From NCBI RefSeq assembly GCF_002846335.1, contig NZ_PJMQ01000001.1:682001-746000 (forward strand): a DNA stretch of 64,000 nucleotides, in the 5' to 3' direction. The DNA is from Janthinobacterium sp. 61 (GTDB lineage Bacteria > Pseudomonadota > Gammaproteobacteria > Burkholderiales > Burkholderiaceae_D). Made by a program: the position numbers and the translations under genes. How positions within the stretch are numbered: the first letter of the stretch is position 1; the number at the start of each line of letters is the position of its first letter. Below the pieces are notes generated by a model. That model was not told the origin of the DNA and made no database searches. It saw nothing but the letters and a program-made list of their open reading frames with translations. Positions 24,356 through 27,367 of this stretch are shown here, piece after piece.

Positions 24356-26062
24356 TCAGGCGGCGCTGGCCGCCAAGTCGGACGCTGTTGTTTTTTCGGC
24401 TTCCGTCTGCCCGATGCGGCGGTTCACGGCCGACAGCACGGCCTTGAACGAGGCGGTGACGATATTGCTGTCGATGGCGGCGCCGAACAGGGTCGGGCCG
24501 TTGTCGAGGCGCAGTTCCACGTAGCAAGCCGCTTGCGCGTTGGCGCCCGAGCCGATCGAATGCTCATGGTAATCCATCAATTTGATGTCCAGGCCCAGCG
24601 CATTGACGAAGGCATCGATGGGGCCGTTGCCGCCGCCTTGCAGGGCCAGTGGTGTCTGGCGGTGCGACAGGTTGATGTCGATCTGCACGGATTCATCGCT
24701 GTTCGTGTCTTCCACCATGCGGTGCGAGGCGTAGGCGTACGGCGCCGTCTGCTCCAGGTATTCCTTCTGGAAAATTTCATGGATATCCTGTGCGGCGATT
24801 TCGCGGCCCGTGGCATCGGCCACGGCTTGCACGGCGCGCGAGAATTCGATCTGCAGGCGGCGCGGCAAGACCAGGCCGTATTCCTGTTCCAGCAAATACG
24901 CCATGCCGCCTTTGCCGGACTGGCTGTTGACGCGGATCACGGCATCGTAGCTGCGGCCCAGGTCGGCCGGGTCGATCGGCAAGTACGGTACTTCCCAGAT
25001 GCTGTCCGGTTGTTGCTTGGCAAAACCTTTCTTGATGGCATCCTGGTGCGAGCCGGAAAACGCCGTGAAGACCAGGTCGCCCGCATACGGGTGGCGCGGG
25101 TGGACGGGTAACTGATTGCACTCCTCCACGCACTTGCGCACGGTGTCGATGTCGGAGAAATCCAGGCCCGGGTGCACACCCTGCGTGTACAAATTCATCG
25201 CCAGGGTGACCAGGTCGACGTTGCCGGTGCGCTCGCCATTGCCGAACAAGCAGCCTTCGACGCGGTCGGCGCCCGCCATCACGGCCAGTTCGGCCGACGC
25301 GACGGCCGTACCGCGGTCGTTGTGCGGGTGCACGCTGATGATGATGGAATCGCGGCGCGCCAGTTTGCGCGACATCCATTCGATCTGGTCCGCATACACG
25401 TTCGGCGTGCTGCATTCCACGGTCGATGGCAAGTTGATGATCATCTTGTTGGCCGGCGTCGGTTTCCAGATGGCGCTGACGGCGTCGCAGATATGCTTGG
25501 AGAAATCGAGTTCGGTAGTGGAAAACGATTCCGGCGTGTATTCAAAGCCCCATTCCGTTTCCGGATGCTGGGCTACCAACTGTTTTACCAAGGTGGTGCC
25601 GGTGGTGGCGATATTCGTGATTTCTTCGCGCGACATGCCGAACACGACCTTGCGGAACACGGGCGCCACCGAGTTGTACAGGTGGACGATGGCGCGCTTG
25701 GCGCCGACGACCGATTCCACCGTGCGGCGTATCAATTCTTCGCGCGACTGGGTCAGCACGATGATGGTGACGTCGTCCGGGATGCGGCCTTCATCGACGA
25801 GTTTGCGCACGAAGTCGAAATCTGTCTGTGATGCCGATGGGAAGCCCACTTCGATTTCCTTCAGGCCGATGGCGATCAGCATCTCGAAGAACCGCAGCTT
25901 CTTTTCCGCGCTCATGGGCTCGATCAAGGATTGGTTGCCGTCTCGCAAGTCGGTGCTCATCCAGATAGGCGGTTTGCTGATGATCTGGTTTGGCCATTGA
26001 CGGTCGGTCAATTTGACGGGAGGAAAGGCGCGGTATTTGGAAGCTGGGTTTTGCAACATCAT
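24356..26062 (-). CDS. leuA: 2-isopropylmalate synthase LeuA (long form)
   Basis: A 568-residue enzyme condensing acetyl-CoA with 2-ketoisovalerate, the first committed step of leucine synthesis. The catalytic TIM barrel (about 30-310) shows [20 protein letters not shown] (metal and substrate loop), [16 protein letters not shown] and [20 protein letters not shown] (metal histidines), then [19 protein letters not shown]. The C-terminal domain (about 440-568) is the LeuA dimer allosteric domain that senses leucine. The length is that of the Actinobacteria/proteobacterial long form. Tandem ATGs at 26062 and 26059 follow AGGAG by nine bases. A long leader with leucine-rich mini-ORFs precedes it, so leucine-dependent control is likely. 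Confidence 0.95.
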
Positions 26063-26109
26063 GATCGGGTACTCCTGAAGATAGGGGGAAATCAATGGTT
26101 GTGGCGCAA

Positions 26110-26147
26110 GCTTGCCGGGCGGCCACGCAACACTAGGCCAGGCAAGC
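26110..26147 (-). promoter_or_regulatory. Hairpin at end of leuA leader
   Basis: In RNA sense, GCTTGCC (26147-26141) pairs with GGCAAGC (26116-26110), with inner GGCC copies (26139-26136 and 26124-26121) also able to pair. It begins inside the last codons of the second leader peptide and includes its stop. Overlapping alternatives (GTGGC with GCCAC at 26128-26100, and the GCAAGCTTGC palindrome) make mutually exclusive folds possible. No strong U run follows, so control may act through Rho or on translation. Confidence 0.5.
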
Positions 26148-26243
26148 GGTCGGTAGTTTTAGCAGGCAAAGCAGGGCAACGGCGCCAGCGGTGGCGGTCG
26201 CGTCAGAAGTTACGGGTGTAGCGGGGGATGGTGCAAACATCAT
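26133..26243 (-). CDS. Putative leuA leader peptide 2 (leucine-rich, 36 residues)
   Basis: Tandem ATGs at 26243 and 26240 follow GGAAGG at ideal spacing. The first 22 residues are Ala/Thr/Pro rich; then comes ALLCLLKL, with leucine codons CTG CTT, CTG CTA and CTA, and the peptide ends PTACLA. CTA is rare in this CTG-dominated genome. The stop is 70 bases before the leuA ATG, and the last codons lie in the stem of a strong hairpin. This is the arrangement of a ribosome-stalling leader that senses charged leucyl-tRNA, by analogy with E. coli leuL, which also uses CUA. Translation is not shown. Confidence 0.5.
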
Positions 26244-26304
26244 CAAACCTTCCAGGGTTTTTGAAACACGCCGGCGTGTGGCCAGGCGAAGCAATGCGGC
26301 AAAC

Positions 26305-26373
26305 TTATGCGCGTGCTAGGTGTAGTCGCGATAGCGACAGCAGGGAAGGGGAGGAATGTTTGAAGGAGGACAT
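26305..26373 (-). CDS. Putative leuA leader peptide 1 (leucine-rich, 22 residues, possibly leaderless)
   Basis: The ATG at 26373 lies six bases after the -10 hexamer TACATT, so the transcript may start at or next to the A of the ATG and be translated without a Shine-Dalgarno sequence. The peptide is Ser-rich at first and ends with SLLSLSRLHLARA. Its five leucine codons are CTG CTG CTA CTA CTA, three of them the rare CTA, within nine codons. The coding RNA folds around TGTCGC-TATC-GCGAC, so stalling on those codons would change its structure. This is a strong pattern for a leucine attenuator, but translation is an inference. Confidence 0.5.
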   Translation of the reverse strand: MSSFKHSSPSLLSLSRLHLARA

Positions 26374-26379
26374 GCACTT

Positions 26380-26409
26380 AATGTACGGGAAGTTGGGCGC
26401 GGCTGTCAA
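26380..26409 (-). promoter_or_regulatory. Sigma-70 promoter of the leuA leader
   Basis: On the minus strand, TTGACA (26409-26404) is separated by 18 bases from TACATT (26385-26380). The -35 is a perfect match. The promoter lies 12 bases past the end of the barstar-like gene and about 320 bases before leuA. Confidence 0.8.
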
Positions 26410-26420
26410 GCGTTTCCGTT

Positions 26421-26708
26421 CTACATGTAATGTACCTGCGTCGCCCCGTCCGGCGCATCGTGCGCCATGCGCGCCAGGATGCGCTGCAGGAGGGCCGCAT
26501 CGCGCGGCAGCCGCTCTTCCAGCATGTGCCACCCCATGAATTGTATCTGTTGCGGCATATCCACCAGGCCAGTGATGGCATCCCAGAAGGCATCCCAGTT
26601 CATGCCGTAATTGGCAGGAAAGGCCAGCGCGGCTGCCAGGGTGGCATGCAGCTGGCGCGCGGTGTTGATATCGCTCAAGTCGATGCTGATATGGACTGGC
26701 CTGTTCAC
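26421..26708 (-). CDS. Barstar-family (RNase inhibitor-like) protein
   Basis: A 95-residue protein with the barstar fold pattern: VHISIDLSDINTARQLHATL (strand then helix), LAFPANYGMNWDAFWDAITG (the family hallmark NYG-NWDAFWD) and PQQIQFMGWHMLEERL. In Bacillus, barstar blocks the RNase barnase; chromosomal barstar homologues in proteobacteria often have no partner nearby. The start is GTG at 26708, with AAGGG six bases upstream, and its first bases overlap the TGA of the preceding gene (GTGA), so translation is coupled. No barnase-like gene is seen in the window; the RNase T2 at 60 kb is of another fold. Confidence 0.85.
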   Translation of the reverse strand: MNRPVHISIDLSDINTARQLHATLAAALAFPANYGMNWDAFWDAITGLVDMPQQIQFMGWHMLEERLPRDAALLQRILARMAHDAPDGATQVHYM

Positions 26709-27367
26709 AGTATGCCCTTGAGCAGGTTCTGCAGGTTTTGCCGCATGCCACCCACCACTGTTTCGTGCCGCTCCAGGATGGAGGAAGCATCGTTGAACGG
26801 TGCCGGGTCGAGGTACAGGCGCGGCAAGTCGGCCACGGCCACGCCGCGGGGTCCGCCGCGCAGGATGCCGTCCACATGCTTGTTGATCGAATTGACGGCC
26901 GCCTGGATGCGCGGCGTCGCTGACGCTGCCAGGCAGGCGGCCAGCGCGGCATCGAGGTAGGCGCGCGTGGGCGCTTGCGGCAGCACAGGCGCGGCAATCT
27001 GTTCCAGCGGCGACATGTTGGCGGCTGGTCTGCGGTAGGCATGCAGGGTATCGAGCGCCATCAGCCGGTGCGGGCCACCGCGCTGCAGCCAGGCAGCGAT
27101 GCGCGGCCAAGGCGTGCCCAGCAGCGCCGCCGCCACGCCCCATTGCCCCGCCACGGGCGAGCCGACATAGTCGTCGATCCAGTCCAATGCGGCTGGATTG
27201 CCCGTGTAGGCCAGCAAGATGGCGTTCGACGAACGCAGCGCGGGCGCCTGTGTGGCGAGGATGGCAGTCAGCCAGGTGAGGGCGCCATCGGGAGGATAGC
27301 TGGATAACTGTTGTGCAAATGGGGCGCTCAGGGCGCGGCTGTCGGAAAATTGATATTCGTCGGACAT
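26705..27367 (-). CDS. Hypothetical helical protein translationally coupled to barstar-like gene
   Basis: A 220-residue, mostly helical soluble protein of no family I can name. The middle (about 50-115: ALRSSNAILLAYTGNPAALD, WIDDYVGSPVAGQWGVAAAL) has the look of short HEAT-like helical pairs. The end (PRLYLDPAPFNDASSILERH) is more polar. The start at 27367 (MSDEYQFSD) is chosen; the longer frame to 27493 runs into the divergent promoter. Its stop overlaps the GTG of the barstar-like gene. The two are therefore made together and may act together, but nothing in the sequence says how. Confidence 0.65.
   Translation of the reverse strand: MSDEYQFSDSRALSAPFAQQLSSYPPDGALTWLTAILATQAPALRSSNAILLAYTGNPAALDWIDDYVGSPVAGQWGVAAALLGTPWPRIAAWLQRGGPHRLMALDTLHAYRRPAANMSPLEQIAAPVLPQAPTRAYLDAALAACLAASATPRIQAAVNSINKHVDGILRGGPRGVAVADLPRLYLDPAPFNDASSILERHETVVGGMRQNLQNLLKGIL

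Follow-up and report, generated by a model that had tools for sequence, protein, structure and literature searches.

The window, a 64,000-nucleotide stretch of DNA from Janthinobacterium sp. 61, carries on its minus strand a leuA gene whose product scores 800 bits against TIGR00970 (cut-off 697), also matches PF00682, PF22615 and PF08502, and has its closest named relatives in Janthinobacterium (98–99% identity). A second, distant leuA-family gene of the same genome, about 30% identical to this LeuA, lies at G000:C1:2652434-2653927. On the far side of the leuA leader is a Barstar-family (PF01337) gene (26421-26711, minus strand), the 3′ end of which is 11 bases upstream of the −35 box of the leader. 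The 5′ leader of leuA in this soil bacterium appears to be a conserved RNA control region, composed of two tiny leucine-rich ORFs (LP1 and LP2) and an RNA pseudoknot, and it looks like a two-step leucine sensor. The three parts and their order emerge from comparison of related loci. The features, all on the minus strand, are listed here from the −35 box towards leuA.

26404..26409, minus strand: −35 box TTGACA of the leader promoter (TTGACA in 71 of 76 loci, TTGACG in 5 of 76)
26380..26385, minus strand: −10 box TACATT (TACATT in 58 of 76 loci; the remaining boxes are TAnnnT variants, a form that the search pattern demanded)
26305..26373, minus strand: LP1, putative leaderless Leu-rich leader peptide MSSFKHSSPSLLSLSRLHLARA, 22 codons, the TAA stop ending at 26305
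26344..26362, minus strand: 5′ arm of H0, in LP1 RNA, with core CCTTCC at 26349-26344 (predicted pairing with the LP2 SD and start)
26325..26338, minus strand: H1, hairpin GTCGC-TATC-GCGAC in LP1, over the middle Leu codon (predicted fold, alignment)
26234..26253, minus strand: 3′ arm of H0, the LP2 SD GGAAGG and start codons (predicted fold)
26133..26243, minus strand: LP2, 36-residue second leader peptide (SD GGAAGG, conserved frame and stop)
26137..26147, minus strand: 5′ arm of pseudoknot helix P1 (overlaps the end of LP2)
26110..26120, minus strand: 3′ arm of pseudoknot helix P1 (alignment covariation)
26122..26126, minus strand: 5′ strand of pseudoknot helix P2, GTGGC (Watson-Crick partner test)
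26101..26105, minus strand: 3′ strand of pseudoknot helix P2, GCCAC (Watson-Crick partner test)
26072..26076, minus strand: Shine-Dalgarno sequence (SD) AGGAG of leuA (sequence)
24356..26062, minus strand: leuA, 2-isopropylmalate synthase of the TIGR00970 type (profile matches)

A sequence-only reading of this DNA had pointed to a promoter, TTGACA-18-TACATT, ending six bases before an ATG. It is indeed present, with its boxes at 26409-26404 and 26385-26380 separated by 18 nt and with AAGTGC (26379-26374) filling the six bases before the ATG at 26373, and it is the only promoter-like site in 25900-26800 (shuffled sequences: mean 0.4, sd 0.6). Transcription is predicted, from the spacing between −10 box and ATG only, to start at the A of the LP1 ATG (26373). 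The 22-residue minus-strand ORF that follows contains, as had been described, the leucine codons CTG CTG CTA CTA CTA in that order. LP1 is at the same time the in-frame tail of a 245-codon mechanical ORF (26305-27042, minus strand) that overlaps the Barstar gene, and an ORF caller could therefore hide it.

The comparison drew on 134 loci around relatives of this leuA, 132 of them with a usable leuA marker (L029 and L030 are without). The LP1 search pattern required a TTGAC(A/G)-type promoter of this shape, allowed any distance of 3 to 10 nt from −10 box to ATG, and retained candidates of 16–31 codons with at least three Leu. LP1 is present in 76 of the 77 Oxalobacteraceae-group loci with upstream DNA, the exception being Undibacterium L075 (L057 has no upstream DNA and was left out); these 76 represent 54 distinct LP1 DNAs and 46 peptides, some records being from the same genome. 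Such recurrence argues that the promoter and ORF seen in the window are more than chance. A Leu-rich frame is kept in the same 76 of 77; loss of the leucine codons in related genomes had been named in advance as what would refute the proposal, and the outcome favours it.

The sequence of LP1 has the marks of a leaderless ORF: an SD-like motif ahead of it was found in 0/76 loci, and the distance from −10 box to ATG, which is 6 nt in 67/76 loci and 7 nt in 9/76, would place the transcription start at the AUG. CTA accounts for 58.7% of the Leu codons in LP1 (n = 528) and 39.9% in LP2 (n = 419), compared to 0.1% in the leuA genes (n = 3137) and 0.5% in four long ORFs from the window (n = 207), so the rarity of CTA previously supposed holds. 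(Six pattern matches outside the Oxalobacteraceae, L084, L086, L093, L097, L103 and L104, are excluded from the LP1 codon and spacing counts.) In a 34-sequence alignment, all 35 gaps within LP1 are multiples of three, which is not so for the gaps behind it, and among single-base codon differences the synonymous/non-synonymous ratio is 1.26 in the LP1 frame versus 0.27 and 0.41 in the other frames. We consider it very likely, on this comparative evidence, that LP1 is a translated, leaderless leucine sensor. The trpL of Sinorhizobium meliloti (peTrpL) is reported to be a short leaderless attenuator ORF with Ribo-seq support (PMC7298713, PMC10117765), and leaderless mRNAs are described in Cupriavidus metallidurans and Burkholderia cenocepacia (PMC7563307, PMC4603805); these precedents make a leaderless reading of LP1 plausible. 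The trpL leader also resembles LP1 in being a short sensor ORF with which a proteobacterial biosynthetic transcript begins, but it responds to tryptophan, has one leader ORF and works by transcription attenuation that generates an sRNA.

The second ORF, LP2, and the pseudoknot behind it were absent from the sequence-only reading, and what that reading had observed is part of something larger. LP2 is preceded by the SD GGAAGG (26253-26248, minus strand), and 68/74 loci have an SD-like motif at this place, by a pattern slightly looser than that used for LP1 (GGAA added). The length of LP2 is variable, and the rule used to pick its starts errs in L019 at least; of the 97 loci that have the pseudoknot element, 84 place the LP2 stop exactly 12 nt into P1. 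The third codon before P1, 6 nt from the pseudoknot, is CTA in 73/75 Oxalobacteraceae-group loci and in 20/22 others, and, among LP2s with the usual tail (66 distinct), 65 have Leu as the codon five before the pseudoknot element. For these 66 the synonymous/non-synonymous ratio is 0.71 in frame versus 0.30 and 0.32. LP2 is also rich in C and poor in G (median C/G 1.95 versus a 99th percentile of 1.62 for windows inside leuA), a bias not special to LP2, since the start of leuA reaches 1.73.

The element behind LP2 is best described as an H-type pseudoknot, with compensatory changes seen in both helices of the aligned sequences. In an alignment of 32 hand-picked sequences, 95.5% of the P1 cells are paired, with 16 double-change cells versus 3.3 in shuffles (0/500), and all slid versions of P1 are far worse; two weaker measures gave 4 pairs with a double change versus 2.3 (44/500) and 11 further pair types versus 9.3 (87/500). 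A permissive test of P2 was matched by its controls in 63% and 73% of cases, and a Watson-Crick-only test was used instead. By this test the P2 5′ strand has a perfect partner no more than 30 nt away in 103/119 loci, and several of the 16 loci that lack one pair through G-U; L024 and L055 are counted as non-matching owing to a wrong P1 register, though GTGGC and GCCAC are visible in both. Pairing of P2 is kept through changes on both sides in six loci (GCGAC/GTCGC in three, GCGGC/GCCGC in two and CTGGC/GCCAG in one). For the nine loci with a variant P2 strand, shuffled downstream DNA matched in 1058/9000 trials and swaps in 183/910.

The covariance model R1 gives the window element 66.5 bits and has one match in the genome of the window. 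Its matches among 49 sources include Cupriavidus, Undibacterium, Herbaspirillum, Parvibaculum and others. Under strict filters, by which weak matches are lost, it was found in 26/300 genomes of the order, where 23/27 matched loci carry the leuA marker, and in 5/398 of a phylum sample, all in the same order; in the order search, L168-L170, at 27-29 bits, appear to be false matches, and L171 is truncated. A search of Rfam 15 over 25900-26800, with E up to 5, returned a single chance match of 11 bits (gathering score 45). P1 lies 83 to 140 nt from the leuA start in the Oxalobacteraceae group and 73 to 208 nt from it overall, a spread that speaks against a single fixed contact with the leuA SD.

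Predicted folds suggest how the two ORFs may be connected. They fold the LP1 region into a multi-branched domain; within it the LP2 SD and start would be paired with the first half of LP1 (H0), and H1 would be one arm of this larger fold. The fold TGTCGC-TATC-GCGAC proposed earlier survives as the 5-bp hairpin GTCGC-TATC-GCGAC (26338-26325), the leading T being unpaired. Over 39 hand-picked loci the pairing of the LP2 start region with LP1 averages 0.65 and exceeds 0.5 in 34, compared to 0.52 when synonymous LP1 codons are permuted and 0.40 when codon order is shuffled. This signal comes mainly from relatives of Duganella and Massilia; the Janthinobacterium rows are no better than the synonymous control (0.42 versus 0.47 for the window), and pairing is weak in L046 (0.03) and L055 (0.39). 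The duplex energy within clades was reached by 54 of 5040 clade permutations, and the clade swap test was failed by L046, L055 and L056. In the 34-sequence alignment used for pair counts, which left out L035, L046, L055, L056, L058 and L134, 82.5% of the H0 and 92.7% of the H1 cells are paired, with 11 double-change cells versus 5.6 in shuffles (7/500); the Janthinobacterium rows are gapped at H1 and not counted there, and in other genera the equivalent hairpin shows a U-A to C-G exchange in 5 sequences. The LP1-LP2 domain set, from which both the 39 loci (also used for the clade permutations) and the 34 aligned sequences were taken, consisted of 70 loci, 54 of them distinct (L016, L019, L050, L054, L093, L097 and L104 were left out). 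Run on the gapped LP1-LP2 alignment, RNAalifold returned no base pairs, and we used per-sequence folds, permutation tests and the count on named structures, which are weaker evidence than an alignment-based prediction. When whole leaders are folded (77 loci), pairing is only modestly stronger at the LP2 start than at the leuA start, with medians of 0.61 and 0.48. Support for H0 is thus moderate and uneven; that LP1 gates LP2 is likely, as judged from these models.

Our results point to a two-stage, translation-based leucine sensor. Transcription would start at or beside the LP1 ATG, and LP1 would be read as a leaderless ORF, as its spacing from the −10 box implies. The LP1 coding RNA, with its internal hairpins, is predicted to adopt a structure in which the LP2 SD and start are paired with its 5′ half. 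When leucine is sufficient, the ribosome would clear LP1, the pairing would re-form and LP2 would stay closed. When leucyl-tRNA is short, above all the one that reads CTA, a ribosome may stall at the earliest LP1 Leu codons. These fall on the stretch that masks the LP2 SD or directly behind it, and a stall there would open LP2. The anatomy of LP2, with CTA 6 nt before the pseudoknot and a stop usually 12 nt into it, suggests that pseudoknot formation and coverage of the C-rich, G-poor leader would both be governed by a ribosome on LP2. For the output we favour loss of transcripts to Rho before leuA when the leader is uncovered and not when it is covered; translational control of leuA is a live alternative, and both the Rho step and the sense in which the switch operates are inferred. 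Because the evidence for LP1-LP2 pairing is uneven, we give this full model an even chance. Its more specific form is a ribosome relay, in which stalling on LP1 turns on LP2 and the LP2 ribosome at the pseudoknot sets leuA, so that charged tRNA would be read twice in series, with a sharper or two-threshold response, by a leader that would be an old cassette; this form we hold tentatively, at somewhat less than even chance.

Part of this arrangement has a parallel in the actinobacterial LEU element, in which, according to its description, the leader ORF carries a run of Leu codons, the RNA folds into a pseudoknot, and the Leu run pairs with the leuA SD to form a stem (PMC1262725). LP2 is likewise a leader ORF with a Leu run upstream of leuA, and P1 and P2 would form a pseudoknot just after that run; a leuA-type gene downstream and the lack of a typical terminator are also shared. 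In addition, leuL1 of Streptomyces lividans is reported to be leaderless and without a typical terminator (PMC8079986), which recalls what we propose for LP1. The LEU element as described there differs in having one leader ORF, whereas here there are two, of which the one adjacent to the pseudoknot (LP2) has an SD. The base stem between Leu run and leuA SD reached p ≤ 0.05 in 3/63 Oxalobacteraceae loci (mean z 0.24) and in 8/22 Alcaligenaceae-like loci, by a weak test in which the three actinobacterial controls gave p values of 0.12, 0.46 and 0.06; the stem is not supported in the former group and finds partial support in the latter. LP2 with its pseudoknot resembles the LEU element, and the window element works partly like one, but we do not class it as one.

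It is conceivable, though we think it unlikely, that LP2 and the pseudoknot are the real leucine sensor, in the manner of the LEU element, and that LP1 is translated only to open or shape the RNA and senses no leucine. The fixed 6-nt distance of the LP2 CTA from the pseudoknot fits such a sensor, as do the Alcaligenaceae-like loci, which have LP2 and the pseudoknot and no LP1 by the promoter-plus-ORF pattern, and Cupriavidus L141/L142, where no LP1 is seen by eye. The same order of parts is found by eye in three actinobacterial leaders (L138-L140), namely the Leu run, about five nt, P1, the stop in the loop, and P2. On the other hand, CTA is even commoner in LP1 than in LP2, and L044 and L045 retain LP1 while LP2 and the pseudoknot element are both absent, which suggests that LP1 is useful alone.

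In the usual picture of leader-peptide control, one SD-driven sensor is combined with a terminator. The enterobacterial leuL is of this kind: its leader peptide is rich in Leu and uses rare CUA codons, and it has both a ribosome-binding site and an intrinsic terminator. In the leu leader of Salmonella, the rare CUA codons are important. The Leu-rich peptide with rare CUA codons upstream of leuA is shared with the leader described here; LP1 differs in having no SD-like motif, and no terminator was found here. The leaderless leucine attenuator proposed by the sequence-only reading therefore stands as regards a conserved sensor peptide without a ribosome site, and not as regards a classical attenuator: a simple consensus scan of 25900-26800 for an intrinsic terminator gave 0 terminator-like sites (0.7 expected in shuffles). 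A conventional transcription attenuator, with LP1 and LP2 in one switch and a terminator that was missed, is weak or is assisted by Rho, is accordingly improbable in our estimate, even though the ORFs before leuA are rich in codons for the amino acid of the pathway and several loci show, by eye, T-rich stretches soon after the pseudoknot; these stretches are not conserved. Comparison of loci thus supports a leaderless leucine sensor well and a simple attenuator not.

A binding role for the RNA itself deserves slightly less credence still. The pseudoknot would then bind a protein or ligand, as has been suggested for the LEU element of Actinobacteria, with little importance left to the ORFs. Its structure is strongly conserved, and, for the Streptomyces coelicolor leuA leader, which has a related layout, codon mutations are reported not to fit classical attenuation and a binding protein was proposed (PMC1262725), which would count against a purely translation-based reading if the two systems are related. 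CTA enrichment, frame conservation and the fixed distances of both ORFs nevertheless point to translation. That LP1 is conserved RNA structure or promoter-proximal sequence only, with no translated ORF, is very improbable: much of LP1 does lie within the predicted RNA fold, but its gaps keep to multiples of three where those after it do not, its frame has a synonymous bias, and the ATG, stop and Leu-rich frame are retained in all but one of the 77 loci.

The two-stage sensor that we prefer also recalls translational attenuation of the ermC type, in which the RNA of a leader ORF sequesters an SD further downstream until a ribosome stalls on that ORF. A stall-freed SD is what we propose for LP1 and LP2; here, unlike in ermC, the SD set free would be that of another leader peptide instead of the regulated gene's own, and charged tRNA would take the place of a drug as the signal. 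The surprise of the finding is the tandem arrangement with a pseudoknot, in which a sensor without a ribosome site sits in series with a second sensor, across many genera. No description of a betaproteobacterial leuA leader was recognised in searches of a set of open-access papers, which leaves most subscription papers outside. If our reading is correct, leaderless initiation is used for control, a cascade of two stalled ribosomes becomes testable, and the long-unsettled actinobacterial LEU element is suggested to be part of a wider, translation-linked group.

Natural variants with LP1 only, with LP2 and pseudoknot only, or with both allow direct comparison. Outside the named Oxalobacteraceae, inspection by eye reveals a Leu-rich first ORF 6-7 nt after a −10-like hexamer in L154, L158, L162, L163, L167 and L097, and 8-9 nt after one in L159, L160 and L093; the pseudoknot is present in most of them as well. 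In two Parvibaculum loci (L086, L104) the first ORF is likewise spaced by 6 nt, and the pseudoknot is present. LP1-like leaders before this leuA thus appear to recur in several betaproteobacterial families and in Parvibaculum. Pairing of LP1 with the leuA SD in L044 and L045 was looked for in folds and not found.

Other leuA leaders in the collection are built differently. A different Leu-rich leader ORF (..TLSLLLARSTGLGLLLRAS..) lies upstream of leuA in Burkholderia sp. H160 and Paraburkholderia (L094, L105), with a strong inverted repeat, CTAGCCCG..CGGGCTAG, across its Leu codons. On Sphingomonas and Shinella plasmids (L143, L144), Leu-rich ORFs followed by long hairpins precede leuA, and there is no R1 match. 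In Achromobacter and relatives (L063-L065, L067, L148, L150), the spacer between pseudoknot and leuA is long and has GAATCC..GGATTC ends; in L063-L065 and L067 the leuA SD (GAGGTGTAG) is complementary to the Leu codons of LP2, recalling the actinobacterial base stem.
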